A DNA stretch of 12,721 nt from Flavobacterium psychrophilum (GTDB lineage: Bacteria; Bacteroidota; Bacteroidia; Flavobacteriales; Flavobacteriaceae), in NCBI GenBank assembly GCA_945897545.1, contig CAMDGJ010000063.1, positions 1 to 12,721 of the forward strand. Reading direction: 5' to 3'. Under the pieces are notes generated by a model. It saw only the letters and a list, made by a program, of their open reading frames with translations. It searched no databases and was not told the DNA's origin. Positions 917-12,721 of this stretch are shown one piece after another. Made by a program: the position numbers and the translations under genes. Positions within the stretch are counted from its first letter, which is position 1. Each line of letters opens with the position of its first letter.

Positions 917-2140
917 ATGAAAACATTAAAACTAAATAGAGCAACACAATCAAAATTATTTTTTGTACTATTATTAGCCATCAGTACTGTTTTTTCAACA
1001 GTAAGTGCTCAAGAACCCGTAAAATTAGGATTCATTCCACTTACTGATTGTTCGCCAATAGTAATGGCAAAAGAACTGGGATTATTTAAAAAATACGGTG
1101 TCGAAGTAATTGTTACCAAAGAATCGTCTTGGGCAAACATTCGCGACAAAGTCCTAACAGGCGAATTAGACGGTGCACATTGTTTGTATTCAATGCCATT
1201 TTCAGTTTATACAGGAGTGGGTGGAAAAGCAGGTTCTGAAATGAAAATTGCGATGATGCTCAACGTGAACGGACAAGCTATCACACTTTCCAATGATTTT
1301 TGCGGTAAAGTAGGTTTCAAACAAATGAACAAAGTAACTCCCGTTGTAGCGGCTAAATTAAAAGCCGAAAAAGAAGTAACATTTGCAATGACATTTCCAG
1401 GTGGAACCCACGATTTATGGTTGCGAAACTGGATGTCTATTGCTGGTTTAAATCAAAAAGCAGTAAAAATAATCACTATTCCACCTCCACAAATGGTAGC
1501 TAATATGAAAGTGGGTAATATGGACGGATACTGTGTTGGTGAGCCTTGGGGCGGAGTTGCCGTAAAACAAGGTATTGGATTTACTCAAGTTGCGACTCAA
1601 GATATCTGGAAAGATCACCCAGAAAAGGCATTGGTTGTCAATAAAGATTTTAGTGCAAAACGCAAAGCTGATTTAGTAAAAGTAATGAAAGCAGTAATGG
1701 AAGCCTGTAAATGGTTAGACGTTCCTGCCAATCGTAAAAAAGCTGCTGCTATCATAGGAAAAGCACCTTATGTAAATGCTCCTGCAGAAGTAATCGAAAA
1801 TAGATTGATGGGGAATTATGATTTGGGTTGCAACCAAGGAACTGAAATTTATGACAATGATTATATGTTGTTTCACAAAGGCGGAATGGTCAATTATCCT
1901 CGTAAATCACATGCAATATGGGCAATGGCACAGTTTGTTCGATTCGGATATTTGAAAGAAGCTCCTGATTACAAAGCCATAGCAGACAAATTAATCTTGC
2001 AAGATTTGTATGAAGAGGTGGCTGCCAGTATGAAAGTAAAAGTACCTGCTGATGATATGAAACCGTTTTCACTTACTATGGACAAAACTGTTTTTGACCC
2101 AAATAATCCGACAGCCTATTTGAAAGTTGTTAAAAAATAA
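917..2140 (+). CDS. nrtA: Periplasmic nitrate-binding protein of an NrtABC/D-type ABC importer
   Basis: The 407-residue protein is of the CmpA/NrtA family, which captures nitrate or nitrite in the periplasm and hands it to the NrtB permease. Residues 1-31 form a Sec signal peptide (Lys/Arg start, hydrophobic LFFVLLLAISTV, likely cut after VSA at 31). There is no lipobox cysteine, so the protein should be soluble, unlike the lipoprotein NrtA of cyanobacteria. Family hallmarks seen are LGFIPLTDCSPIVMAKELGLF near residue 38, SW at 71-72, FPGGTHDLWLR at 160-170 (H165 matches the ligand-binding histidine region of NrtA) and GYCVGEPWGG at 204-213. The length is close to the family norm. It is the second gene of the visible operon. 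Bicarbonate (CmpA) or another anion cannot be excluded, but the nirBD and narK genes nearby favour nitrate. Confidence 0.9.
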   Translation: MKTLKLNRATQSKLFFVLLLAISTVFSTVSAQEPVKLGFIPLTDCSPIVMAKELGLFKKYGVEVIVTKESSWANIRDKVLTGELDGAHCLYSMPFSVYTGVGGKAGSEMKIAMMLNVNGQAITLSNDFCGKVGFKQMNKVTPVVAAKLKAEKEVTFAMTFPGGTHDLWLRNWMSIAGLNQKAVKIITIPPPQMVANMKVGNMDGYCVGEPWGGVAVKQGIGFTQVATQDIWKDHPEKALVVNKDFSAKRKADLVKVMKAVMEACKWLDVPANRKKAAAIIGKAPYVNAPAEVIENRLMGNYDLGCNQGTEIYDNDYMLFHKGGMVNYPRKSHAIWAMAQFVRFGYLKEAPDYKAIADKLILQDLYEEVAASMKVKVPADDMKPFSLTMDKTVFDPNNPTAYLKVVKK

Positions 2141-2156
2141 AAAAAGTAAATCACTC

Positions 2157-2185
2157 GTATTCCTCTTCACCTAGAGGAGGAATAC
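2157..2185 (+). promoter_or_regulatory. Strong intergenic RNA hairpin between nrtA and nrtB
   Basis: Twelve bases at 2157-2168 (GTATTCCTCTTC) pair with 2174-2185 (GAGGAGGAATAC) with a single T-G wobble, around the 5-nt loop ACCTA. It starts 17 nt after the nrtA stop and ends 52 nt before the nrtB start. No T-run follows, so it is not a classic intrinsic terminator. A stem here could block 3' exonucleases and keep nrtA mRNA in excess over nrtB, as known for binding-protein genes such as malE. That role is inferred. Confidence 0.6.
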
Positions 2186-2237
2186 CAAATGATGCTCCAC
2201 ACAAATTAAAGATTAAAACTAATTAAATTTTATTACC

Positions 2238-3119
2238 ATGTCAGATAAAAATACACTAACCATTGATGCATTGGAGTCAACCATCAATATTGCTACAGAA
2301 TCACAAAAGAGTTTTGCAAAGGAAAATTACAAGCTCAAATTGGCTTTAAACACAATTATTGAAAAATCAAAATCAATCTTTTTTGCAGTAATTGGTTTAC
2401 TGGTTTTTGGTGGATTTTGGAGTTTATTGAGTATTTATACAGAAGATGCTTTGCCTGGCCCTGTTGCTACTTTAACTGTATTGAAAGAAATGTTAAGCGA
2501 TCCATTCTACGATTATGGTCCAAATGACAAAGGAATTGGATTGCAATTATTCAACTCCATAAAAACAGTTCTTTTGGGATTCTTGTTGGGGTCTTTAATT
2601 GCTATTCCTATCGGGATTTTGATGGGAGCAAGCACCATTTGCAAACAAATTTTTTATCCAATAGTGCAATTATTGAAACCAGTTTCGCCTTTGGCTTGGT
2701 TTCCGATTGGGTTGGTAGTTTTTAAAGATACAGGAATGGCAACTATATTTATTGTTTTTATCACTTCGTTGTGGTCAACGCTTATCAATACTTCTTTTGG
2801 AGTTGCCTCGATTCCACAAGATCATAAAAACGTAGCGAAAGCTTTTGGTTTCTCAAAAATGAGATATTTGACAAAAATATTGATTCCATATAGTTTGCCT
2901 CACATTATTACTGGTTTGCGATTGAGTATCAGTGTCGCTTGGTTGGTAATTGTTGCCGGCGAAATGTTGTCTGGTGGTGCTGGAATTGGGTTCTTTGTTT
3001 GGGACAGCTGGAATGCATTGAGCCTTGAAAAAGTAATATCGGCCATTTTAATCATTGGTATTGTGGGATTACTTTTCGACAGAATATTCACTTTTATTGA
3101 AAACAAAGTAGCATATTAA
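2238..3119 (+). CDS. nrtB: Nitrate ABC transporter inner-membrane permease
   Basis: The 293-residue protein is a BPD-type (MetI-like) permease of the NrtB/SsuC/TauC group. After a hydrophilic N-terminus of about 45 residues come hydrophobic segments at roughly 46-66, 107-130, 152-178, 216-240 and 265-283. The cytoplasmic EAA-type loop that docks on the ATPase is seen at about 199-221 (VAKAFGFSKMRYLTKILIP); the usual EAA start is VAKAFG here, as is common in NrtB. PLAWFPIGLVVF at 151-162 is typical of this permease group. The ATG at 2238 gives the expected length. It sits between the binding protein and the ATPase gene, with unusually long gaps for one operon (97 and 108 nt) that hold a hairpin and tandem repeats. 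The nitrate assignment rests on nrtA and the neighbourhood. Confidence 0.9.
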   Translation: MSDKNTLTIDALESTINIATESQKSFAKENYKLKLALNTIIEKSKSIFFAVIGLLVFGGFWSLLSIYTEDALPGPVATLTVLKEMLSDPFYDYGPNDKGIGLQLFNSIKTVLLGFLLGSLIAIPIGILMGASTICKQIFYPIVQLLKPVSPLAWFPIGLVVFKDTGMATIFIVFITSLWSTLINTSFGVASIPQDHKNVAKAFGFSKMRYLTKILIPYSLPHIITGLRLSISVAWLVIVAGEMLSGGAGIGFFVWDSWNALSLEKVISAILIIGIVGLLFDRIFTFIENKVAY

Positions 3120-3120
3120 A

Positions 3121-3203
3121 AAGTTAGAAGTGAGAGGTTAGAAGTGCGAAGTTAGAAGCATTCATAGCAACCATCTTTAATCTTCCATCGCCTTACTTCC
3201 ATC
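3121..3203 (+). repeat. 14-nt-period tandem repeats between nrtB and the ATPase gene
   Basis: Two full copies and a partial third copy of a 14-nt unit start right after the nrtB stop: AAGTTAGAAGTGAG (3121-3134), AGGTTAGAAGTGCG (3135-3148) and AAGTTAGAAG (3149-3158). A second pair, CTTCCATC at 3182-3189 and 3196-3203, has the same 14-nt spacing. It is non-coding. The G/A-rich first block and C/T-rich second block could pair weakly in RNA. The function is unknown. Confidence 0.7.
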
Positions 3204-3227
3204 TTAAAACAACTAAAACTAAAAAAA

Positions 3228-4034
3228 ATGAGTTATTTAGAAATCAAAAACTTAGAAATTTCGTTTCCAACGCCAAAAGGAAAATATATTGCAGTAACAG
3301 ATATAAATTTATCTATCAAAAAAGGAGAAAAGATATCCATAATTGGTCACTCGGGTTGTGGCAAATCTACTATTATGAATGCCATTGCTGGAATGTTAAC
3401 TCCAACAGGAGGAACGGTTGTATTAGACGGAAAAAACATAAAAGGCCCAGGCCCAGACAGAGGAATTGTTTTCCAAAATTATTCACTTTTGCCTTGGTTA
3501 TCGGTTCACGAAAACATCTTTCAAGCTGTCGATTCCGTAATGGATTGTTCCAAGAAAGAAAAACACGAAATTGTAGATTACAATCTAAAAATGGTTAATT
3601 TATTGTCGCACCGAGATAAATTACCGGGTCAATTATCGGGCGGAATGAAACAAAGAGTTGCCATTGCAAGAGCCTTTGCCATCAATCCTGGAGTGTTGTT
3701 ATTGGATGAACCTTTTGGAGCTTTAGATGCCTTTACAAAAAGTTCTATGCAACTGGAAGTGTTGAAATTATGGAACCTCAACAACCGCGACAAAACCATT
3801 ATTATGATTACACACGACATCGAAGAAGCCTTATTTTTATCAGACAGAATTGTGGTTTTAAATGACGGACCAGCTTCGACCATAAGAGAAGTTGTAGACG
3901 TTCATCTAAAAAGACCAAGAAACAAAATTGAGATTGTAAAAACTGCTGAATATATTGAATTGAGAGATAAATTATTGCATCTACTCACCGAAGAATTCTC
4001 TATCGAAGATATGGGAGTAGAGTATAAAAATTAG
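3228..4034 (+). CDS. nrtD: Nitrate ABC transporter ATP-binding protein (NrtD type, not fused)
   Basis: The 268-residue ABC ATPase powers the importer from the cytoplasmic side. All nucleotide-site motifs are intact: Walker A GHSGCGKST at 40-48, the Q-loop glutamine Q83 in VFQNYSLLPW, the signature LSGGM at 136-140, Walker B VLLLDEP at 156-162 with catalytic E161, the D-loop ALD at 165-167, and the H-loop H196 in MITHDIEEA. The Q-loop followed by LLPW and the C-terminal end of about 60 residues fit the NrtD/SsuB/TauB group. Cyanobacterial NrtC has a second substrate-binding domain of about 380 residues; that is missing here, so NrtD is the better name, and one homodimer would serve NrtB. It is the last gene of the + strand operon, and a terminator follows 24 nt after the stop. 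Confidence 0.9.
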   Translation: MSYLEIKNLEISFPTPKGKYIAVTDINLSIKKGEKISIIGHSGCGKSTIMNAIAGMLTPTGGTVVLDGKNIKGPGPDRGIVFQNYSLLPWLSVHENIFQAVDSVMDCSKKEKHEIVDYNLKMVNLLSHRDKLPGQLSGGMKQRVAIARAFAINPGVLLLDEPFGALDAFTKSSMQLEVLKLWNLNNRDKTIIMITHDIEEALFLSDRIVVLNDGPASTIREVVDVHLKRPRNKIEIVKTAEYIELRDKLLHLLTEEFSIEDMGVEYKN

Positions 4035-4125: not shown

Positions 4126-5040
4126 TTATAGTTCAATTTTTGAAATTCTTTCTTTAAAAATCTTATTGATAGAATTTCCATTTTTTTCAATAAAATCGAT
4201 TCTTTTTAAAATACTTTCGATAAATCTTTTACTTTCGAAAATTAATTCATTTACTTGTAGTTTTTCTTTAGGATTAAGGCTGAACTGATGTTGTACATCA
4301 TAAAAAATATTTGTATAAATAAATAGCTTTAAAAAAATCAAATAGATAAAATGTTCGTGAGAAATATTACTTATTGAATATCGAATTCTATCTTTTCTTT
4401 CATCTCGATAATTACCGGATGACATAAAATTGATATGGCAATGTTCACATAAAAGTTCATATATTGCATTGTGAACATTTATATCTTCGGTATAATTTGT
4501 TTTTGAAGCTTTTTCAAAAATTCCAGTTCCGAAATTATAAATATTATTATCTTCAATATTCAGAATTTTATTTTTAATTTCTTTACCGTTTTTATTAATT
4601 GGATGAACATATTTACCAAAATGTAAACCAACTTTAAAAATCGAATCACATACCCTTCTAGGATCTTTATTCAAAAATGCAATATACACATATGCCTAAT
4701 AGCTGCTGCGAAGTAAGCTAAATGCATCCTCATAATTAAATATTTTTATCAAAGCATCAATGGATTTATGAATCCGAAGAGATTTAGTAAAACAAAAAAG
4801 TTGCACATCGAAATTTATTGATAAAAAATCATCCGAATCTCTTTTATCTATAAATTTTGGATAACCATATTTTTTTAAAAGTTTTTCACTTAGCTGAAAA
4901 AAATGTTTGTTTAGTTGATTAAAACTTTTACTAATTAACTGTTCGGTATAGATTTCTCCAAGTTGCTTAGATTTCATCAAAATCGTATTATATTTATAAT
5001 TTTTGAATAGCTTATATAATCTATTCCAAATGTACAACAT
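4126..5040 (-). pseudogene. DUF5677-like gene interrupted by one in-frame TAG codon
   Basis: The frame is open from upstream of 5040 down to the TAA at 4126-4128, except for a single TAG at 4696-4698 on the - strand. The two halves are in exactly the same frame, so this is one gene of roughly 300 codons with a nonsense codon, not two genes. Around the break it reads EDAFSLLRSSY-stop-AYVYIAFLNKDPRR. This resembles the RSxxE helix motif of DUF5677 proteins (HEPN-like, mainly helical, function unknown); the stop sits where the motif's Glu is expected, and GAG to TAG is one change. The start is either ATG 5040 or ATG 4977; the latter lies about 50 nt behind a TAnnTTTG element. The region is clearly more AT-rich than its neighbours and sits between two convergent nitrate transport units, which suggests acquired DNA. 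A truncated 93-114-residue product is possible. The family assignment is from memory of its motifs and moderate. Confidence 0.6.
5027..5034 (-). promoter_or_regulatory. Possible Bacteroidota -7 element of the DUF5677-like gene
   Basis: TACATTTG on the - strand matches the TAnnTTTG consensus of the Bacteroidota housekeeping sigma factor exactly. It lies downstream of the narK terminator. A transcript from here would begin near 5020 and favour the ATG at 4977 over the one at 5040. No good -33 TTTG element is seen, so the call is weak. Confidence 0.3.
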
Positions 5041-5051
5041 AACAAAAACAT

Positions 5052-5084
5052 AAAAAAGGCCTCTGAAATCAATCAAAGGCCTTT
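5052..5084 (-). terminator. Intrinsic terminator of narK
   Basis: On the - strand AAAGGCCT (5084-5077) pairs perfectly with AGGCCTTT (5062-5055) around a 14-nt loop; the second arm and the bases after it make a run of six T ending at 5052. It is 28 nt after the narK stop. It overlaps the first codons of the open frame of the following gene if that were started upstream of 5040, which argues against such a start. Confidence 0.75.
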
Positions 5085-5111: not shown

Positions 5112-6602
5112 CTATTTCTTAGAAGATTCACGCTCCATAACCTTTGACAATTCGGGTTGTTTCTCGTTCATAATTCGGGTTACTGTTCTATGCATCCAAA
5201 TCAAACAAATCGATGAAAATATCAAAATGAATATCCAAGAACTTGACCAAAAACCCGTACTGGTCAATAAATATCCAAAAATAATTGGACCGAAGAAACC
5301 TCCTAAACCACCTATCATTCCTACCATTCCTCCTACAACACCCACTTCGGTCGGGAAATATTCTGGAATATGTTTGTAAACTGCAGCTTTACCAATTCCC
5401 CAAGAAATACCAATCAAGATTACCAAAACTAAATACACCCACATATTAGCATCAAAATTAATTTGGGTTACCCCTTTGGCTAATAATTCTTTCTTCTTTA
5501 CTTCTTGATTTTCTTTAACTACTACTTCCTGCCACGAATTTTTAGTTGGAAAAATAGTATTTTGGTTTGGCTTCTCAACTTTTTTATTAATTGCAAAATC
5601 CTTTTCGCCTACTTTTACATTGGTATCAGAAACTGAAGTTATTATTCCTTTTTTTCCAGCCATAACACCTGGACCAGCCGTTGTGATATCCATTTTTGGC
5701 ACCATTAATAAAGCAATAAGTATTACGGACGATGATAAGACCCAATACATTACTTTTCTGGCTCCAAATTTATCCGACAAATAACCCCCAAATGCACGAA
5801 TCACGCCTGATGGCAAACTAAACATCGTAGCAAACATTCCTCCCATAACCAAACTGGTTTGATAGACATTCATAAAGTTGGGCAACAACCATTGCGCATA
5901 AGCCACAAAACACCCAAATACCAAGAAATAATAGGCTCCAAATCGCCAAACCCGAACACTTTTTAAAGAACCCAGCATTTGAGAAACCGTTTTGGTATTA
6001 TTTTCTAATTTTTTGTTTTTGGCAAAAATCAAGAATAAAACTCCAATAACCAACAAGGCAATACCGTAAATAACCGGCAATAATTTCCATCCATTTTGCG
6101 GGTCATCAATCGAAAATTTATTTAGTAATGACGGTGCCATAAAAGTTGTAATCGCTGCTCCAGCATTTCCCATTCCGAAAATTCCCAAGGCTCTTCCTTG
6201 CCATTCTTTTGGATACCAAATAGATGTAAAACCAATACCTACAGCAAAACTGGTTCCCACCATTCCAAACAAAAAGCTTAAAACGGCAAACATAAAAAAG
6301 CTGTTGGCCAACGGAAGTAAAAACAAAGGAATGGAACACAGGAGTAATAAAAAGGAGAAAACATATTTTCCACCATATTTATCGGTCAGCATTCCTATCG
6401 GCAAACGCATAATGGAACCTGTTAGAATTGGAATTCCCAAAAGCCACCCAACTTGAACAACGCTCCAATGGAAAATGCCATTATCCACCAGAAAGGTGAC
6501 TAAGACACCATTCAAAGTCCAGCAAGCAAAACATACCGTAAAGGCAAGAGTATTTAGAAATAAAATTTTGTGAGATTGTGATAAGGAATTTGCATCTGTC
6601 AT
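5112..6602 (-). CDS. narK: NarK-type nitrate/nitrite transporter (MFS) with an extra periplasmic domain
   Basis: The 496-residue major facilitator moves nitrate and/or nitrite across the inner membrane. NarK hallmarks are present: the anion-binding arginines R66 in TM2 (IMRLPIGMLTDKYGG, with the MFS loop 2-3 motif) and R269 in TM8 (GVIRAFGGYLSDKFGARK), nitrate signature 1 at about 141-152 (IFGMGNAGAAIT, TM5) and signature 2 at about 424-438 (GGMVGMIGGLGGFFG, TM11). Residues about 302-386 form a hydrophilic Lys/Val-rich insert between TM9 and TM10, which should face the periplasm; E. coli NarK (463 residues) has only a short loop there. The gene has its own terminator, and a TACGTA inverted repeat lies 77-111 nt upstream of the start. 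Whether it is an uptake carrier or a nitrate/nitrite antiporter cannot be told from sequence. Confidence 0.9.
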   Translation of the reverse strand: MTDANSLSQSHKILFLNTLAFTVCFACWTLNGVLVTFLVDNGIFHWSVVQVGWLLGIPILTGSIMRLPIGMLTDKYGGKYVFSFLLLLCSIPLFLLPLANSFFMFAVLSFLFGMVGTSFAVGIGFTSIWYPKEWQGRALGIFGMGNAGAAITTFMAPSLLNKFSIDDPQNGWKLLPVIYGIALLVIGVLFLIFAKNKKLENNTKTVSQMLGSLKSVRVWRFGAYYFLVFGCFVAYAQWLLPNFMNVYQTSLVMGGMFATMFSLPSGVIRAFGGYLSDKFGARKVMYWVLSSSVILIALLMVPKMDITTAGPGVMAGKKGIITSVSDTNVKVGEKDFAINKKVEKPNQNTIFPTKNSWQEVVVKENQEVKKKELLAKGVTQINFDANMWVYLVLVILIGISWGIGKAAVYKHIPEYFPTEVGVVGGMVGMIGGLGGFFGPIIFGYLLTSTGFWSSSWIFILIFSSICLIWMHRTVTRIMNEKQPELSKVMERESSKK

Positions 6603-6619
6603 AATACTTATATTTTTGA

Positions 6620-6627
6620 CAAAAATA
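6620..6627 (-). promoter_or_regulatory. Possible narK promoter (-7 element)
   Basis: TATTTTTG on the - strand matches TAnnTTTG and lies 18 nt upstream of the narK ATG, giving a leader of roughly 12 nt. A GTTTA about 17-18 nt further upstream is a poor fit to the -33 TTTG. In this AT-rich DNA a chance match is possible. Confidence 0.35.
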
Positions 6628-6676
6628 AGTACTAATACTGGAAATAAACCTGCTTTTTCGCAGTTTATGTAAAATA

Positions 6677-6715
6677 ATTACGTATTTATACTTAAATATT
6701 TTACAGATACGTAGT
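6677..6715 (-). promoter_or_regulatory. TACGTA inverted-repeat operator upstream of narK
   Basis: TACGTAT at 6679-6685 faces ATACGTA at 6707-6713, with 21 bases between them, so the two heptamers form an inverted repeat about two helix turns apart. The same arrangement lies before the response regulator gene, and the first 20 bases (6677-6696) match there at 18 of 20. TACGTAT fits the E. coli NarL heptamer TACYYMT at six of seven positions. The pair sits 77-111 nt before narK, a normal activator position. Binding by the neighbouring NarL-type regulator is inferred. Confidence 0.55.
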
Positions 6716-6747
6716 TTTAAATCTTTAAAAAACTAAGCATTAAGAAA

Positions 6748-7407
6748 TTAAAGCAACGAATATTCATTTGCTCTATTAGAAAGTTCTATCAGGTTTTTGA
6801 CTTTCAATTTTTTCATTAAGTTAAAACGATGCACTTCTGCAGTTCTTTTGCTGATGTCCAATGCTTCGGCGATTTCTTTGTTTCCTTTTCCAGATAATAG
6901 CAATTTGAGGATTTCTTTTTCTCTTTTGGTAATCATCATATCTTCATCTATAGTTTGCTTAATATCCATAGAGGCTAGAGGATTACTAAGTTGACTAATT
7001 AATATGGAGGAGATGTCACCACTAAAGTATTTCCCGCCATTGGCAACCGTATGAAGCGCTTTAAGAAATTCTTCTTTACTAGAACCTTTCAACAAATAAC
7101 CATCGGCACCTGCTTTGATAGATTTCAGGACATATTCTTCGGATTCGTGCATAGAAAGCATCACGATTTTCACTAAATTGTTTTGGCTTCTTAATTTCTC
7201 GACTACTTCAATACCAGTCATATTTGGCATACGAATGTCTAAAATAAGCAAGTCTGGTTGTTCGGTTTCAACTACTTTCAATGCTTCTAATCCATCTGTT
7301 GCTTCACCAACAACTTCTATGTTAGCTTCATTTTCTAATAATGATTTGATGCCGTCTCTAACAAAAACGTGATCATCTGCTAGTACAACTCGAATAGTAT
7401 CACTCAT
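6748..7407 (-). CDS. NarL/FixJ-family response regulator, probably nitrate/nitrite responsive
   Basis: The 219-residue protein is a two-component regulator with an N-terminal receiver (about 5-122) and a C-terminal LuxR-type helix-turn-helix (about 157-214). Receiver residues are complete: acidic pocket D11-D12, phospho-acceptor D57 in LLILDIRMPNMTG, switch S85 and K107 in GYLLKGSS. The DNA-binding part shows ITKREKEILKLLLSGKGNKEIAEALDIS and RTAEVHRFNLMKKL, the usual scaffold and recognition helices. The partner is very likely the kinase encoded 183 nt upstream on the same strand; the gap holds a candidate operator and a repeat, so the regulator probably has its own promoter. The inverted repeat is only 28-63 nt before the ATG, so control of its own gene is plausible. 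Length and layout equal E. coli NarL (216 residues). Orthology to NarL itself is not claimed. Confidence 0.88.
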   Translation of the reverse strand: MSDTIRVVLADDHVFVRDGIKSLLENEANIEVVGEATDGLEALKVVETEQPDLLILDIRMPNMTGIEVVEKLRSQNNLVKIVMLSMHESEEYVLKSIKAGADGYLLKGSSKEEFLKALHTVANGGKYFSGDISSILISQLSNPLASMDIKQTIDEDMMITKREKEILKLLLSGKGNKEIAEALDISKRTAEVHRFNLMKKLKVKNLIELSNRANEYSLL

Positions 7408-7432
7408 AACTTACTTAATTTAAAATTATATT

Positions 7433-7472
7433 ATTACGTATTAAAACTTAAAAGTAAGCTAATATACGTAAT
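7433..7472 (-). promoter_or_regulatory. TACGTA inverted-repeat operator upstream of the response regulator gene
   Basis: TACGTAT at 7435-7441 faces ATACGTA at 7464-7470 with 22 bases between. Bases 7433-7452 (ATTACGTATTAAAACTTAAA) match 18 of 20 bases of the site before narK. It lies 28-63 nt before the start codon, close enough to overlap the promoter, which would suit feedback control. A weak -7-like TAATTTTA is seen between this site and the gene. Confidence 0.55.
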
Positions 7473-7481
7473 TTTCAATTG

Positions 7482-7591
7482 CAATAGCAAAAATCAATTT
7501 CAATAATTAATTGAAAATTTGAATCTTTCTTCAATTGTAATTGCCATTGACATTGTAATTGATATTGTTATTGAAATTGCTATTGATATTT
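7482..7591 (-). repeat. NNATTG hexamer tandem repeat with an inverted counterpart, between kinase and regulator genes
   Basis: Nine hexamers ending in ATTG run without a break from 7532 to 7585 (CAATTG, TAATTG, CCATTG, ACATTG, TAATTG, ATATTG, TTATTG, AAATTG, CTATTG), and a degenerate tenth abuts the stop codon of the kinase gene. The 18 bases at 7568-7585 are the reverse complement of the segment 7482-7506 apart from a 7-nt insertion there, so the transcript could fold into a long AT-rich hairpin. It may end or stabilise the nirB-nirD-kinase transcript, or be a lineage-specific intergenic repeat. The function is not known. Confidence 0.65.
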
Positions 7592-9396
7592 TATATGGGA
7601 ATATTAAAGGTAATTCGCGTTCCTTCTTTTGGAATAGAATTTATAAAAACACGTCCATTAATATATTGAATCCTTTCTTTCATGAATAGCAATCCCATTC
7701 CAGATTGACTATTCCTTGTCTTATCTATTTCAGAAACCTCAAACCCTTTTCCATTATCATCAATCGTAATGCTCAAAAGAGTTGCGCTGTGAGAAAGCTG
7801 TACAATAATATGGGTTGAATCTGCATATTTTATGGCATTGTTTATTGCCTCTTGGGTTAACCTATAAATATTTATTTCGACTAAAGAATCCAATCGTTGA
7901 TCAAAATCGGTCTTGTTGTAAAAGAGTATATTTTTGCCGGTCAATTTTGATAATTCCTGGGTCAGTTTTGCCAATGCCGAATTAATTCCGTGGTCACTCA
8001 ATTCCGGTGGCATTAAATTAAATGTTGCCGTGCGAACTCCTTTAATAATATCTAGGGACAATTTTTTGAGGTATTCAATTTTTTGGGCTGCTTTTTCTTT
8101 GTCTTCAAGATCAATACTTTCGAGACTGAATTTCAATCCGGTGAGCATTTGTCCTATTCCGTCGTGAATCTCTCTAGCGATTCTGTTTTGTTCGTTTTCT
8201 TGATTTTCGACAATCTTGCTGGAAATAATTTTCTGTTGATTTATTTTGTCGTTTATGTTCTCTGAATTTAATCGCTCGACTTCTTGTTCTGCTTTTTTAC
8301 GCTCCGTTATATCAAAACAGATAATCAACAACTCTGATTCTTCTTTCTTAATCGTTACGGGAACCATTGATAAATCAAGCCAAATAGATTCATTATTCCT
8401 ATTGGTAATATTGAGTTCACCTTGCCAACCCGTTCTATTTTTATTGCCAATAATACGGTCGATAACTTCTTGTTCTTTTTCGATTGGAGTTAATACTTGA
8501 GCAAAAGTTTTATCGGAAAGGAAAGGATTATATTGGAGTAATTTTGAGAATTTTTCCCCAATATGAATGATGGAACCATCTGGAGAAAGTCTGCAATACA
8601 ACAAAGTGTTTTCCATTGCAAAGTTAAGCGATTTCAATTCTTTGACGGAGTTCTCTTTGATTTCGCTAAGATTTTCTGTGTCTCGCGCTAGTTTCAAGGC
8701 TTTCTTTTCGGAATTCAGCAATTTAAAAATGAGTTGTTCCACCTTTTTATTTGTGGGCTTGAAAATAAAAATAAATTCTAATAACAAAACCAACATCGTG
8801 AATAGTAGAATAGCATATTCGGTTTTGCTTTGCAGCGTCACTTTTTCGAGGGCTTCTTTATCGTACTCACCTACAATTTGGTTCATTTTTTCCAGAAAAA
8901 CACCTTGATTTTCGAGAATAGTTTGTACTAATTCTTGATTTTCTTTTTCGTTGATTCCTAACTTTTTGTTGTCTAGAAATGCCGTTGCAGCTTTGACGAT
9001 AGTGTCAAAATTGGGTTTAATAGCACTATACAATTTAGCTAGAGTCTCGCTTTTTTGTTTTGGAAAACCAAGACTATCATTTCCGTTTTCTAAGGCATTA
9101 TGGTTGAATTTCCAGAGCGATATGGTTTCATTAATTCTATTTATTTCCAACTTGCTTTTAATTGTATCCGTTACAAAATTCAAAATCAAAATTTCTTTGG
9201 TCAATTTCTGGCTCAACATTCTTTGTTTTCCTGAAATATTGATTATTCTGGAATCGCTCAACTGGCTGTTGAGATTGTATTGTATGAGCAACTGGCTTAG
9301 CAACACCGTAAAGGCAATAGTCAATAAGGCAAAAAGGTACAATCGCCTTAAGTTTTTGAATGAGATGTCGACTGATGTTTCGTCACTTTTTTTCAT
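7591..9396 (-). CDS. NarX-like sensor histidine kinase (PilJ-type sensor, PAS, HisKA_3, HATPase)
   Basis: The 601-residue membrane kinase probably senses nitrate/nitrite and phosphorylates the neighbouring NarL-type regulator. Order of parts: TM1 about 19-39; a periplasmic helical domain 40-192 of the PilJ/NarX type, starting with the P-box-like INISGKQRMLSQKL at 52-65, where R59 matches the arginine of the NarX/NarQ nitrate site; TM2 about 194-212; a coiled linker; a PAS domain about 258-365 ending in ICFDITERKKAEQE; a second coil; a HisKA_3 dimer region with phospho-acceptor H411 in REIHDGIGQML; and the ATPase with N519/N520 (QEAINNAIKYA), G1 DDNGKGF at 546-552 and G2 GMGL at 566-569. The ATG is 12 nt behind the DUF4202 stop, so it belongs to the nirBD operon. 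NarX itself has GAF-like rather than PAS modules, so the domain build differs. The ligand is inferred. Confidence 0.88.
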   Translation of the reverse strand: MKKSDETSVDISFKNLRRLYLFALLTIAFTVLLSQLLIQYNLNSQLSDSRIINISGKQRMLSQKLTKEILILNFVTDTIKSKLEINRINETISLWKFNHNALENGNDSLGFPKQKSETLAKLYSAIKPNFDTIVKAATAFLDNKKLGINEKENQELVQTILENQGVFLEKMNQIVGEYDKEALEKVTLQSKTEYAILLFTMLVLLLEFIFIFKPTNKKVEQLIFKLLNSEKKALKLARDTENLSEIKENSVKELKSLNFAMENTLLYCRLSPDGSIIHIGEKFSKLLQYNPFLSDKTFAQVLTPIEKEQEVIDRIIGNKNRTGWQGELNITNRNNESIWLDLSMVPVTIKKEESELLIICFDITERKKAEQEVERLNSENINDKINQQKIISSKIVENQENEQNRIAREIHDGIGQMLTGLKFSLESIDLEDKEKAAQKIEYLKKLSLDIIKGVRTATFNLMPPELSDHGINSALAKLTQELSKLTGKNILFYNKTDFDQRLDSLVEINIYRLTQEAINNAIKYADSTHIIVQLSHSATLLSITIDDNGKGFEVSEIDKTRNSQSGMGLLFMKERIQYINGRVFINSIPKEGTRITFNIPI

Positions 9397-9408
9397 AATG
9401 AAATGGTA

Positions 9409-9996
9409 TTACAACCCAAGTGCTTCTTTTATCAATTGAAGATTTGCTGTGCTAAAATTGATTTTTAAAGCTTCTTGATGACCGCTTTCTGACATTTTAT
9501 TCCAGGTTTTCAAAATGATGTTTTTGAGTTTCTCCGTGTCGTGTTTGTGTACAAATGGCTCTAAGTAATATTCCAAAAACACGAGACAAATTACATCTTC
9601 TAATAACTGGGTTTCTTCGTCTTTTTTTAGTAATTTTTTTTCGATTAGGAAAGAAACTCGGTCTATAAATGCTGGAGAATAGCCTGCTTTTTCTAAAATT
9701 TCGGCAGTTGTTTTAGCGTGGAATTTTTTTAAATCTTCGCGCCATTTTAAATAACCCACACGATCCATTGGGTAGGATTCTCTGGGCATTTTCCATCGGC
9801 AAATGTGTTGTGCTTTTGCAGCAATTTGAACTGCTTCGGAAGCATTTGGATGAAAATCCATCAGCCTTTCATACATTCGATTCGAATATAAAAGTTCTTT
9901 TGAATAGGTTTTAGATTGGTATATTTCTTGGTTGGGATCTTGAGCATTTTCTGCATCGATCCAAGTGCTTGCTTTCTGGAATTGTGATTGTATCAT
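9409..9996 (-). CDS. DUF4202 family protein in the nitrite reductase operon
   Basis: The 195-residue soluble, mostly helical protein has no signal peptide or membrane segment. I recognise the DUF4202 family from FDxANAxDP-like start WIDAENAQDPN (12-22) and the core AAKAQHICRWKMPRESYPMDR (about 60-79) followed by GYLKWREDLKKFHA (81-94). A second block, KKDEETQLLEDVICLVFLE (124-142), holds acidic residues. The invariant-looking H64, R67, H93, E133 and D134 resemble a metal-binding, HD-like site, but this is a guess. The biochemical role is not known to me. Its place, 30 nt after nirD and 12 nt before the sensor kinase, ties it to nitrite reduction or its regulation, for example cofactor handling, maturation of NirBD or modulation of the kinase. 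Confidence 0.85.
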   Translation of the reverse strand: MIQSQFQKASTWIDAENAQDPNQEIYQSKTYSKELLYSNRMYERLMDFHPNASEAVQIAAKAQHICRWKMPRESYPMDRVGYLKWREDLKKFHAKTTAEILEKAGYSPAFIDRVSFLIEKKLLKKDEETQLLEDVICLVFLEYYLEPFVHKHDTEKLKNIILKTWNKMSESGHQEALKINFSTANLQLIKEALGL

Positions 9997-10026: not shown

Positions 10027-10404
10027 TTATTCTAAAAACCCAACGAATACTTCATCTCCTACAATTTTTACGGGATAAGTCGCTATAGAATAGTCGTCTC
10101 CATTTAAATTTGAACCATCCACAAGAGAAAAAGTTTTTTTGTGAAGTGGGCAGGCAATTTTAGGAATTTCGTCCATAGAACCTATCATTCCTCTAGACAA
10201 AACCATTTCCAATTTATGTGGACATAAATTTTGGCAAGCATACCATTCGTTTCTACGATTAAATTGTATGACCGCTATTTGCTTGTTTTTGTATTTGATG
10301 CAATTTCCGCCATCAATTGGGAAATCTGTTGTTTTTCCTGCATTGAACCAAACTTTTACATCTTCTTTATTGACGGTTTCGTATTGATTTAGTATTTCTT
10401 CCAT
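10027..10404 (-). CDS. nirD: Nitrite reductase [NAD(P)H] small subunit, Rieske type
   Basis: The 125-residue cytoplasmic protein is the NirD partner of the siroheme subunit NirB. It carries a complete Rieske [2Fe-2S] site: C61-P-H63 and C85-P-L-H88, in NLCPHK and IACPLHKKTFSL, within a Rieske_2 beta fold that starts around VKVWFNAGK at 17-24 and ends in DEVFVGFLE. Some NirD proteins keep the fold but lose part of the ligands; here all four are present, so a bound cluster is expected. The gene begins 34 nt after the nirB stop and ends 30 nt before the DUF4202 gene, which indicates one transcript. Length is slightly above E. coli NirD (108 residues), mostly from an N-terminal extension of about 15 residues. 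Confidence 0.92.
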   Translation of the reverse strand: MEEILNQYETVNKEDVKVWFNAGKTTDFPIDGGNCIKYKNKQIAVIQFNRRNEWYACQNLCPHKLEMVLSRGMIGSMDEIPKIACPLHKKTFSLVDGSNLNGDDYSIATYPVKIVGDEVFVGFLE

Positions 10405-10438: not shown

Positions 10439-12721
10439 TTACCATGACCTCGGCATTTTTTGTTCTCTTAGCGGCAAATATTCCAAAGTATCATCTCTAT
10501 CGTCTGAATTCGTAAAGTGGCTAAATCTTTTCATCATTTCAGGATCTTCTATCGCTTGTTTCCATTCACACTCAAAAGTATCAACCAAACCTTGCATTTC
10601 GGCTTCTAATGTTTGAACAATTCCTAAACTGTCATTGATGATTACCTCTTTTAAATAATCCATACCACCATCTAATTTTTCTAACCAAGTCGCTGTTCGA
10701 ACTAACGGGCCGGCAGTTTGAATGTAATACATCAGAAAACGATCCATATATTTAATCACGGTTTCTTTGTCGATTTGTTCCGCCAATAAAACAGCGTGTT
10801 TTGGGTTAGCACCACCGTTACCGCAGATGTATAAATTCCAACCACCTTCGACAGCGATAACTCCAAAATCTTTTCCTCGAGCCTCAGCACATTCTCGGAT
10901 GCAAGCAGAAACACCGCCTTTGAGTTTGTGAGGAGAACGAATACCACGATAACGGTTTTCTAATTCGATTGCTAGTGAAGTACTATCGTCCATGCCGTAA
11001 CGACACCAAGCATTTCCGACACAACTTTTTACTGCTCGAAGTGATTTTCCGTAAGCGTGACCACTTTCGAAACCTTTATCAATTAATTTTTTCCAAATTG
11101 TAGGTAAATCATTGAGTTCTGCACCAAACAAATCGACCCGTTGCGCACCCGTAATTTTGGTGTATAAATTATACTCTTTGGCTACCTCGCCAATGGCTAT
11201 TAATTTCTCGGCAGTTACCTCGCCACCCGCCATTCTAGGCACAACCGAATAAGTTCCGTTGCGTTGAATATTAGCCAAAAATCGATCGTTTGAATCTTGA
11301 GAAGTTACGTGTTTGTTGGCAGTATCATTATAAATACTTGAGAAAACAGAAGACAAAACAGGTCGGCAAACTTCGCAACCGTCGCCTTTGCCTACAACTC
11401 CCAATACTTCGTTGTGATTGGTAAACTTATTAATTTTAACAATATCATATAACTCTTGACGAGAATAAGCAAAATGCTCACAAACAGTATCTTTTACTTC
11501 TTTTCCTAATGATTTTTGAGCTGCTTTGACCAAATCGACTACCATCGGTTTACAACCGCCACAACCCGAAGTCGCTTTGGTTAATTTAGCAACATCCGAG
11601 AATGTTTCGCAAGTTCCATCGGTTATGGAATCGCAAATTGCTCCTTTGGTAACATTTTCGCAAGAACATATAACCGCAGTATCTGGTAAATCATTGGCTC
11701 CCATAGCCATCGATTCTCCTCCACGTGAACCCAAAATAAGATCTTCGGGATTTTTGGGCAACGCCATTGCGTTACTATATATTTGAAACAAAGAGTTATA
11801 ATCACTAGAATCACCCACTAGAATTCCGCCCAAAAGTGTTTTTCCGTCTTTGGTAACATTGATTCTTTTGTAAATTCCGCTGAATTTATTTTCGTAAACA
11901 ATGGCTGTAACCGAATTATTTTCGATAAAAGGATCTCCAAAACTTGCTACCTCAACCCCAATTAATTTCAATTGGGTAGACATATCTATTGTGTCTCTCA
12001 TTGTTTTATCACCATTCAAAATTTGCTCAGCAGCCACATCGGCCATTTCGTAACCTGGTGCTACCAAACCATAAATCATACTATTGTAAAGAGCAACTTC
12101 GCCAATAGCATAAATATGAGAGTCTGAAGTTTGCATCCTGTTGTTTACTACAATTCCACCACGTTCGCCTACTTCAAGACCTCCAACTCTCCCTAGTTCG
12201 TCTCGAGGTTTTATTCCTGCAGAAATTACAAGCATATCTACTTTTAGCAATTCATTGTTGGCGAACATCATTCCTGTAATTGCCTTATCACCATCTAAAT
12301 ATTGAGTAGCTTTATTGAGGTGAATACCTATGTTGAGTTCTTCAATTTTAGATTGCAACATATTACTAGCTTGTTGATCGAGTTGTCGTGGCATTAGCTT
12401 TGGGGCAAATTCTACTACGTGAGCATTTAATCCCATACCGAGAACTGCGTTTGCAGCTTCAAGACCGAGCAATCCTCCACCTAAAACAGCAGCTTCAGTC
12501 GCACCATTTTTTTTGATTTTTTTGGCGTAAGACATCATCGCATCGAGATCTTCGATGGTTCTGTATACAAAAACCCCTTCTTTATCCGAGCCTTTTATTG
12601 GTGGAACAAAAGCAGAAGAACCTGTTGCTAAAACTAAGTAGTCATAAGAAATTGTATTGCCTAAATGAGTTGAAATGGTTTTGTTTTCTTTGTCTAAACC
12701 TATTACCAATTCAGAAGTATT
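10439..12721 (-). CDS. nirB: Nitrite reductase [NAD(P)H] large subunit (5' end outside the window)
   Basis: The siroheme/FAD enzyme reduces nitrite to ammonium with NAD(P)H in the cytoplasm. The frame is open to the window edge; about 760 codons are seen, and comparison with NirB (about 850 residues) suggests some 85 are missing, including the first FAD-binding GxGxxG. Visible in order: FAD/NAD(P) domain with YLVLATGSS (near 12640) and nucleotide-binding AAVLGGGLLGLEAA (near 12490); a BFD-like [2Fe-2S] site, CSC and CGGC (11668 to 11552); a second BFD-like block with CEHFAYSRQELYDIV and CEVC; then the sulfite/nitrite reductase core with the 4Fe-4S/siroheme cysteines in CVGNAWC (11023-11003) and CIREC (10903-10889). 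All four cluster cysteines are present, so it should be active. It is the first visible gene of the nirB-nirD-DUF4202-kinase operon. The TTG at 12709 is not the start. Confidence 0.95.
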   Translation of the reverse strand, partial: NTSELVIGLDKENKTISTHLGNTISYDYLVLATGSSAFVPPIKGSDKEGVFVYRTIEDLDAMMSYAKKIKKNGATEAAVLGGGLLGLEAANAVLGMGLNAHVVEFAPKLMPRQLDQQASNMLQSKIEELNIGIHLNKATQYLDGDKAITGMMFANNELLKVDMLVISAGIKPRDELGRVGGLEVGERGGIVVNNRMQTSDSHIYAIGEVALYNSMIYGLVAPGYEMADVAAEQILNGDKTMRDTIDMSTQLKLIGVEVASFGDPFIENNSVTAIVYENKFSGIYKRINVTKDGKTLLGGILVGDSSDYNSLFQIYSNAMALPKNPEDLILGSRGGESMAMGANDLPDTAVICSCENVTKGAICDSITDGTCETFSDVAKLTKATSGCGGCKPMVVDLVKAAQKSLGKEVKDTVCEHFAYSRQELYDIVKINKFTNHNEVLGVVGKGDGCEVCRPVLSSVFSSIYNDTANKHVTSQDSNDRFLANIQRNGTYSVVPRMAGGEVTAEKLIAIGEVAKEYNLYTKITGAQRVDLFGAELNDLPTIWKKLIDKGFESGHAYGKSLRAVKSCVGNAWCRYGMDDSTSLAIELENRYRGIRSPHKLKGGVSACIRECAEARGKDFGVIAVEGGWNLYICGNGGANPKHAVLLAEQIDKETVIKYMDRFLMYYIQTAGPLVRTATWLEKLDGGMDYLKEVIINDSLGIVQTLEAEMQGLVDTFECEWKQAIEDPEMMKRFSHFTNSDDRDDTLEYLPLREQKMPRSW

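Follow-up and report, generated by a model that had tools for sequence, protein, structure and literature searches.

In E. coli, NarL recognizes a 7-2-7 site, in which two heptamers face each other across a 2-bp gap (PMC4549865), and its heptamer consensus is described as TACYYMT (PMC4886647). For FixJ, the sites described are the SELEX motif GTAMGTAG and the 16-bp TAAGTAATTTCCCTTA (PMC4999443), and the fixK site of R. palustris is given as GTACGTAG (PMC13327599). In Bacteroidetes, the genes of a nitrate two-component system have been named narHK and narRR in a review, with sensors that lack HAMP and GAF domains (PMC8199190); the words promoter and DNA-binding are absent from the main text of that paper, which therefore gives no operator there. 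A comparative study of nitrogen-oxide regulons from 2005 covers NarP for gamma-proteobacteria and Neisseria; for Bacteroides it treats an FNR-like regulator next to hcp (PMC1274295). We found no description of the operator of a flavobacterial nitrate two-component system in the open-access literature, most subscription papers being outside the scope of the search.

We analysed a window, meaning the whole stretch of DNA of 12,721 nucleotides, in which an initial annotation had pointed out two inverted repeats, one before narK and one before a response regulator gene, as a candidate regulon operator. We consider it probable (roughly 0.85) that these repeats are sites of the neighbouring NarL/FixJ-family response regulator and that they belong to a nitrate-regulon operator of flavobacteria. 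The features of the window are as follows.

917..4034, plus strand: nitrate ABC transporter-like genes (Pfam NMT1_2, BPD_transp_1, ABC_tran), namely an NMT1-type binding protein (917-2140), a permease (2238-3119) and an ATPase (3228-4034), all on the plus strand; the substrate is presumably nitrate, judging from the genomic setting.
5112..6602, minus strand: narK, an MFS nitrate/nitrite transporter-like protein (Pfam MFS_1; best NCBIfam match TIGR00886, at 191.7 bits under the cut-off of 311.7).
6605..6610, minus strand: leader heptamer core TAAGTA directly before the narK ATG (in 33 narK upstream regions, 22 cores lie at +21 to +24 relative to the proximal core).
6620..6631, minus strand: narK promoter-proximal element TACTTA-TT-TTTG, its core overlapping the presumed -7 box TATTTTTG.
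6679..6694, no strand: putative narK operator, the perfect 7-2-7 palindrome TACGTAT-TT-ATACTTA, supported by shuffles and by TAMGTA-N4-TACKTA before narK in related loci.
6708..6713, no strand: an additional TACGTA heptamer core lying 29 bp away from the first core of the palindrome (the far arm of the repeat in the initial annotation).
6748..7407, minus strand: response regulator of the NarL/FixJ family with receiver and GerE HTH domains (profile matches), the presumed reader of the operator.
7412..7417, minus strand: leader heptamer core TAAGTA ahead of the regulator ATG (in 72 upstream regions, 64 cores lie at +55 to +57 relative to the proximal core).
7435..7440, no strand: the other TACGTA of the wide pair, which on the regulator strand follows the first at a distance of 30 bp.
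7435..7450, no strand: near 7-2-7 site, TAAGTTTTAATACGTA on the regulator strand, with 1 mismatch and not conserved.
7458..7470, minus strand: regulator-gene promoter element TACGTATATTAGC, with a heptamer core on the presumed -7 box TATATTAG.
7591..9396, minus strand: sensor kinase with PilJ-type sensor domain, PAS, HisKA_3 and HATPase (Pfam).
9409..9996, minus strand: DUF4202 protein, a member of the conserved cluster (Pfam PF13875; homolog in 68/80 loci).
10027..10404, minus strand: nirD, nitrite reductase small subunit (TIGR02378, 92.4 bits, above the cut-off of 74.65).
10439..12721, minus strand: nirB, nitrite reductase large subunit, an open ORF whose start and promoter lie outside the window; its relative in locus L021 exceeds two NirB profile cut-offs.

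The annotated identities of narK and the response regulator held in the profile matches. Between the ABC transporter genes and narK (4126-5076), we also noted two short ORFs on the minus strand that match no Pfam family. Like the NarX–NarL and NarQ–NarP systems of E. coli, the locus combines a nitrate-sensor-like kinase, whose sensor domain carries the G-x-x-R signature (G-K-Q-R, read by eye in the ORF) within a P-box-like stretch, with a NarL-family regulator, and the predicted targets are again nitrate and nitrite genes. Unlike NarX and NarQ, the kinase has a PAS domain and no HAMP or GAF match. It agrees in these features, in its nitrate-type sensor domain with G-x-x-R and in its location among nitrate metabolism genes with narHK/narRR, as far as these are described, a PAS domain being present in some of the narHK kinases. 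The regulator passed none of the equivalog models (NarL/NarP, 167.3 bits against a cut-off of 250 and 137.7 against 343; FixJ, 93.6 against 255). Its recognition helix, RTAEVHRFNLM, is closer to that of FixJ (RTVEVHRANVM) than to that of NarL (STVKVHVKHML). The HTH domain alone matched EsrB, FixJ and NarL in the PDB, in that order, and the full-length protein matched NarL best.

Both repeats are exact as the initial annotation wrote them, TACGTAT-N21-ATACGTA at 6679-6713 and TACGTAT-N22-ATACGTA at 7435-7470, and the wide pattern that they share, which matches twice in the window, was found in 0 of 200 dinucleotide-preserving shuffles. Reading by eye, we also found that they are identical at 18 of their first 20 bases and that TACGTAT matches the E. 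coli NarL heptamer at 6 of 7 positions, as had been stated. The left arm of the narK repeat is at the same time half of the perfect 7-2-7 palindrome at 6679-6694, TACGTATTTATACTTA, which matches once in the window and in none of 200 shuffles.

To place these elements among related loci, we collected at least 537 relatives of the regulator and kept the best 80 (76–92% identity; 73/80 titled Flavobacterium), a set in which related species are not independent samples. Tabulating all facing TAMGTA...TACKTA pairs in these loci revealed 298 occurrences of gap 4, which is the 7-2-7 layout, whereas five local shuffles averaged 1.6; smaller peaks appeared at gaps 14-16, 24-27 and 36. At least one palindrome was present in 77/80 loci. 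Locus genes were located by tblastn at 45% identity or more, leaving out copies with an incomplete N terminus, and their names rest on profile and similarity matches; the name nitrate reductase reflects resemblance, neither of the gene's best NCBIfam matches (formate dehydrogenase alpha and NasC) reaching its cut-off. The palindrome lay within 200 bp upstream of narK in 69/71 cases (window included), of the nitrate reductase gene in 50/50 and of nirB in 67/68. When A at position 3 was not assumed, the hexamer 10 bp from TACGTA was TACGTA or TACTTA in 105/238 cases at narK and 99/136 at the nitrate reductase gene; these two hexamers were in the minority at nirB and fell outside the eight commonest at the regulator gene. 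From these counts, the predicted operator unit of the target genes is TAMGTAT-NN-ATACKTA (M = A or C), a heptamer facing its copy in the 7-2-7 layout.

The initial annotation had instead taken as the unit a wide inverted repeat, TACGTAT-N20-23-ATACGTA, a new spacing that would be bound as such and would depart from the 7-2-7 layout of NarL. A TACGTA pair spaced 28-33 bp is indeed kept at the regulator gene, in 72/80 loci (45 of those at 33), but at narK it is rare (5/71 upstream regions, window included), it is not the arrangement at nirB or the nitrate reductase gene, and 7-2-7 is dominant. We therefore regard the wide unit as highly improbable and dropped it for the target genes, which show precisely the spacing from which they were said to depart, and retained it as a genuine feature of the regulator gene. 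Not all genes of the loci have the 7-2-7 palindrome: in the 260 bp preceding the start, we found it at 0/11 nrtA, 0/24 sirHem and 0/68 DUF4202 genes of the 80 loci, and at 2/6 cobA-like genes, upstream regions shorter than 150 bases being left out of these four counts. Separately, 9/68 DUF4202 upstream regions contain TACKTA-NN-TTWG within 260 bp.

The predicted operator combines traits of two known systems. As in E. coli NarL sites, 16 bp are made up of facing heptamers with a 2-bp gap, and single heptamers stand elsewhere. Unlike NarL sites, the heptamers do not follow TACYYMT, the core being TAMGTA, in which position 3 is A or C and position 4 is G; the recognition helix also differs, and the operator meets a Bacteroidota-type -7 box. 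The TAMGTA half-site core, the 16-bp site and a similar recognition helix are shared with rhizobial FixL–FixJ, which differs in having an oxygen sensor and nitrogen-fixation targets, against the nitrate-type sensor here.

To determine where the palindrome occurs outside the locus, we took the 15 genomes to which the loci led (14 titled Flavobacterium and 1 Chryseobacterium) and searched them with the pattern TAMGTATNNATACKTA. There were 51 matches, with at least one in 14/15 genomes, and the reversed-pattern control gave 0. The window is AT-rich, and such motifs might be put down to chance or composition; against this stand the shuffles of the window and of the loci described above and the empty reversed control in all 15 genomes, which leave that explanation a negligible probability. 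We inspected 31/51 matches from 10/15 genomes, chosen partly to view off-locus matches, and 26/31 were at nitrate-related genes, a Crp/Fnr gene, an Alginate_exp porin, cobA or moeA. These comprised nirB (5), narK (4), a second NarK (1), the nitrate reductase gene (7, of which 4 are shared with a divergent Crp/Fnr gene), a Crp/Fnr gene (1), the Alginate_exp porin (5, and 1 more where the porin frame is broken), a cobA-like methylase (1) and moeA (1). Of the remaining inspected matches, one follows the regulator and precedes an nrtA-like gene by about 500 bp, one is at a nucleotidyltransferase-like gene and one is directly behind the regulator, before a methyltransferase gene. A perfect palindrome between sdhC-like and aminopeptidase P genes in two genomes (L099:3530 and L107:3551) accounts for 2/31. 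In other genomes the palindrome adjoins moeA (L122, L128), the second NarK (L124, L127, L129) or a P-II gene (L134), and some matches fall within reading frames (L131, L133) or near no named gene. A stricter pattern that includes the -7 box matched in 19/20 genomes, with 37 matches on both strands against 4 for the control; part of these were inspected, and one sits 341 bp from the palindrome at nirB.

Bacteroidota-type promoters have a -7 box of the form TAnnTTTG. We observed that a heptamer core frequently enters this box, as TACKTA-NN-TTWG, in the upstream regions of nirB (66/68), the nitrate reductase gene (46/50), the regulator gene (72/81) and narK (33/71), so that a heptamer overlaps the presumed -7 box in 217/270 upstream regions in total. 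In the window, the narK element (6620-6631) and the regulator element (7459-7470) both match this pattern, and two or more matches occurred in 1/200 shuffles. Further cores are found mainly at -22, -10 and +20 from the proximal core at nirB, at -20 and -10 at the nitrate reductase gene, and at -63 and -53 at narK (about 20 of 33 narK). The promoters of nirB and the nitrate reductase gene have three cores about 10–12 bp apart, the last of which overlaps the presumed -7 box. One could read the promoter-proximal TACKTA, which abuts TAnnTTTG in fixed register, as an extended -7 element of a sigma factor, leaving only the distal palindromes as operators. Elsewhere in the loci, outside these four promoter sets, TACK precedes only 38/2377 TANNTTTG sites, and the proximal element has the same core as the distal ones and, at nirB and the nitrate reductase gene, their 10-bp phase; we therefore consider this alternative unlikely. 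The phased cores upstream at the targets suggest activation, and the cores downstream of the presumed start at the regulator gene suggest repression. A heptamer on the -7 box could alternatively mean repression, and NarL is described as an activator at some promoters and a repressor at others (PMC4549865).

The upstream region of the regulator gene has a layout of its own. No exact 7-2-7 site was found within 200 bp in 81 upstream regions (window included), and 2/81 had one with 1 mismatch, compared with at most 1 mismatch in 16/1620 shuffles. On account of these rates, we did not rely on the near 7-2-7 at 7435-7450, a candidate proof of an operator common to both promoters. The same rarity (2/81) implies that the 18/20 agreement between the two repeats is partly particular to the lineage of the window. 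Relative to the proximal core, the conserved cores are at +33 and +57. Single heptamers, and not palindromes, are what the regulator gene conserves.

To examine whether the motif accompanies the regulator, we scored 395 genomes of the phylum, in 19 of which the regulator was present at E <= 1e-65; only the 7 best candidates per genome were scored, so regulators could be missed. Two or more palindromes were found in 16/19 genomes with the regulator and in 10/376 without it (Fisher p = 3.9e-19). The reversed control gave 34 matches in 31 of the 395 genomes, none of them among the 19 regulator carriers. Three of the 19 carriers had fewer than two exact palindromes (G193 none, G300 none, G260 one). 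G300 has the TACGTA pair of the regulator gene and, behind the regulator, a palindrome altered by one base; G193, with a locus of 61% G+C, still has many copies of TACGTA grouped in front of nirB and the nitrate reductase gene; and G260 has a TACGTA pair before the regulator, its sole palindrome not being at a recognised nitrate gene. In two of the 10/376 genomes that have two or more palindromes but no detected regulator, the copies, 14 and 16 in number, belong to an unrelated repeat. The initial proposal of a regulon operator holds in its outline: the motif stands before narK and the regulator gene, is compatible with a NarL-family regulator, is retained at orthologous loci and is not equally common in the background, be it shuffles, reversed patterns or genomes without the regulator.

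Several other placements were recorded in the course of this search. The two repeat-bearing genomes (G304 with 16 copies, G099 with 14) gave no detected regulator. In the five stretches inspected there (L117-L121), the palindromes mostly form pairs 32-33 bp apart within a repeated element roughly 52 bp long, away from nitrate genes. Three stretches, L160 (G260), L161 (G007) and L162 (G011), contain the regulator and DUF4202 genes but none of the kinase, nirB, narK and nitrate reductase genes; TACGTA persists before the regulator in all three, and L160 and L162 also have a gap-4 pair directly behind it. A pattern search of viral contigs gave 14 matching stretches, and no relative of the regulator is encoded in any of them.

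The reader of the palindromes might, in place of the response regulator, be a Crp/Fnr-family regulator whose gene stands next to that of the nitrate reductase in several genomes. Its gene (65–100% identical, query included) adjoins the palindrome in L101, L103, L106, L110 and L114, and Crp-type proteins are generally known to bind palindromes of similar length. The motif is not confined to genomes with a Crp/Fnr ortholog, however. An ortholog (53–76% identity) was present in 9/21 genomes searched. In G193, G197, G209, G260, G007 and G011, the best Crp/Fnr match had 29–34% identity or was missing, with no match at E <= 1e-20 in G193 and only paralogs of 30–34% in G197, G209 and G260. Yet palindromes persist in G197 and G209 and groups of TACGTA in the locus of G193 and G260, and G007 and G011 have a pair and a single TACGTA ahead of the regulator gene. 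The persistence of sites where the ortholog is absent makes Crp/Fnr an unlikely reader, to which we assign a small probability, and points to the response regulator. Single phased half-sites and a FixJ-like core would also fit a LuxR-type output domain better.

We propose the following mechanism for control by the response regulator. When nitrate is present, the partner kinase, with its nitrate-sensor-like domain, would phosphorylate the regulator, the output domains of which may then dimerise on the facing heptamers of TAMGTAT-NN-ATACKTA. The regulator would also occupy extra heptamers, often phased by approximately whole helical turns. Because the cores run up to one that overlaps the -7 box, the bound regulator would sit where the -33 element would otherwise be read, and at the target genes it probably recruits RNA polymerase. 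At its own gene, one heptamer is on the -7 box and others are about 33 and 57 bp downstream, an arrangement resembling a roadblock, by which the regulator probably limits its own synthesis.

For the flavobacterial nitrate two-component system, these results supply a predicted operator and regulon together with a promoter layout, and they lead to direct predictions on nitrate uptake in soil and freshwater bacteria. Since the layout joins NarL spacing with a FixJ half-site, it offers a natural test of how LuxR-type regulators choose DNA. A broader idea, which we put forward tentatively and with more doubt than confidence, is that nitrate promoters of Bacteroidota follow a distinct activation logic, with a regulator heptamer in fixed register on the -7 box and phased partners replacing the -33 element, and that TAMGTA is an ancient half-site, used by LuxR-type response regulators whose recognition helix contains E-[VT]-H-R and common to rhizobial FixJ and the Bacteroidota nitrate regulators. 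If TAMGTA goes with this helix, the operators of other regulators that have it would be predictable.

Two other regulators with receiver and GerE domains, of 36% and 38% identity, adjoin TACGTA palindromes (L163:3224-15813 and L164:3348-4015), a hint that further regulators of the same helix type may use the TAMGTA half-site.
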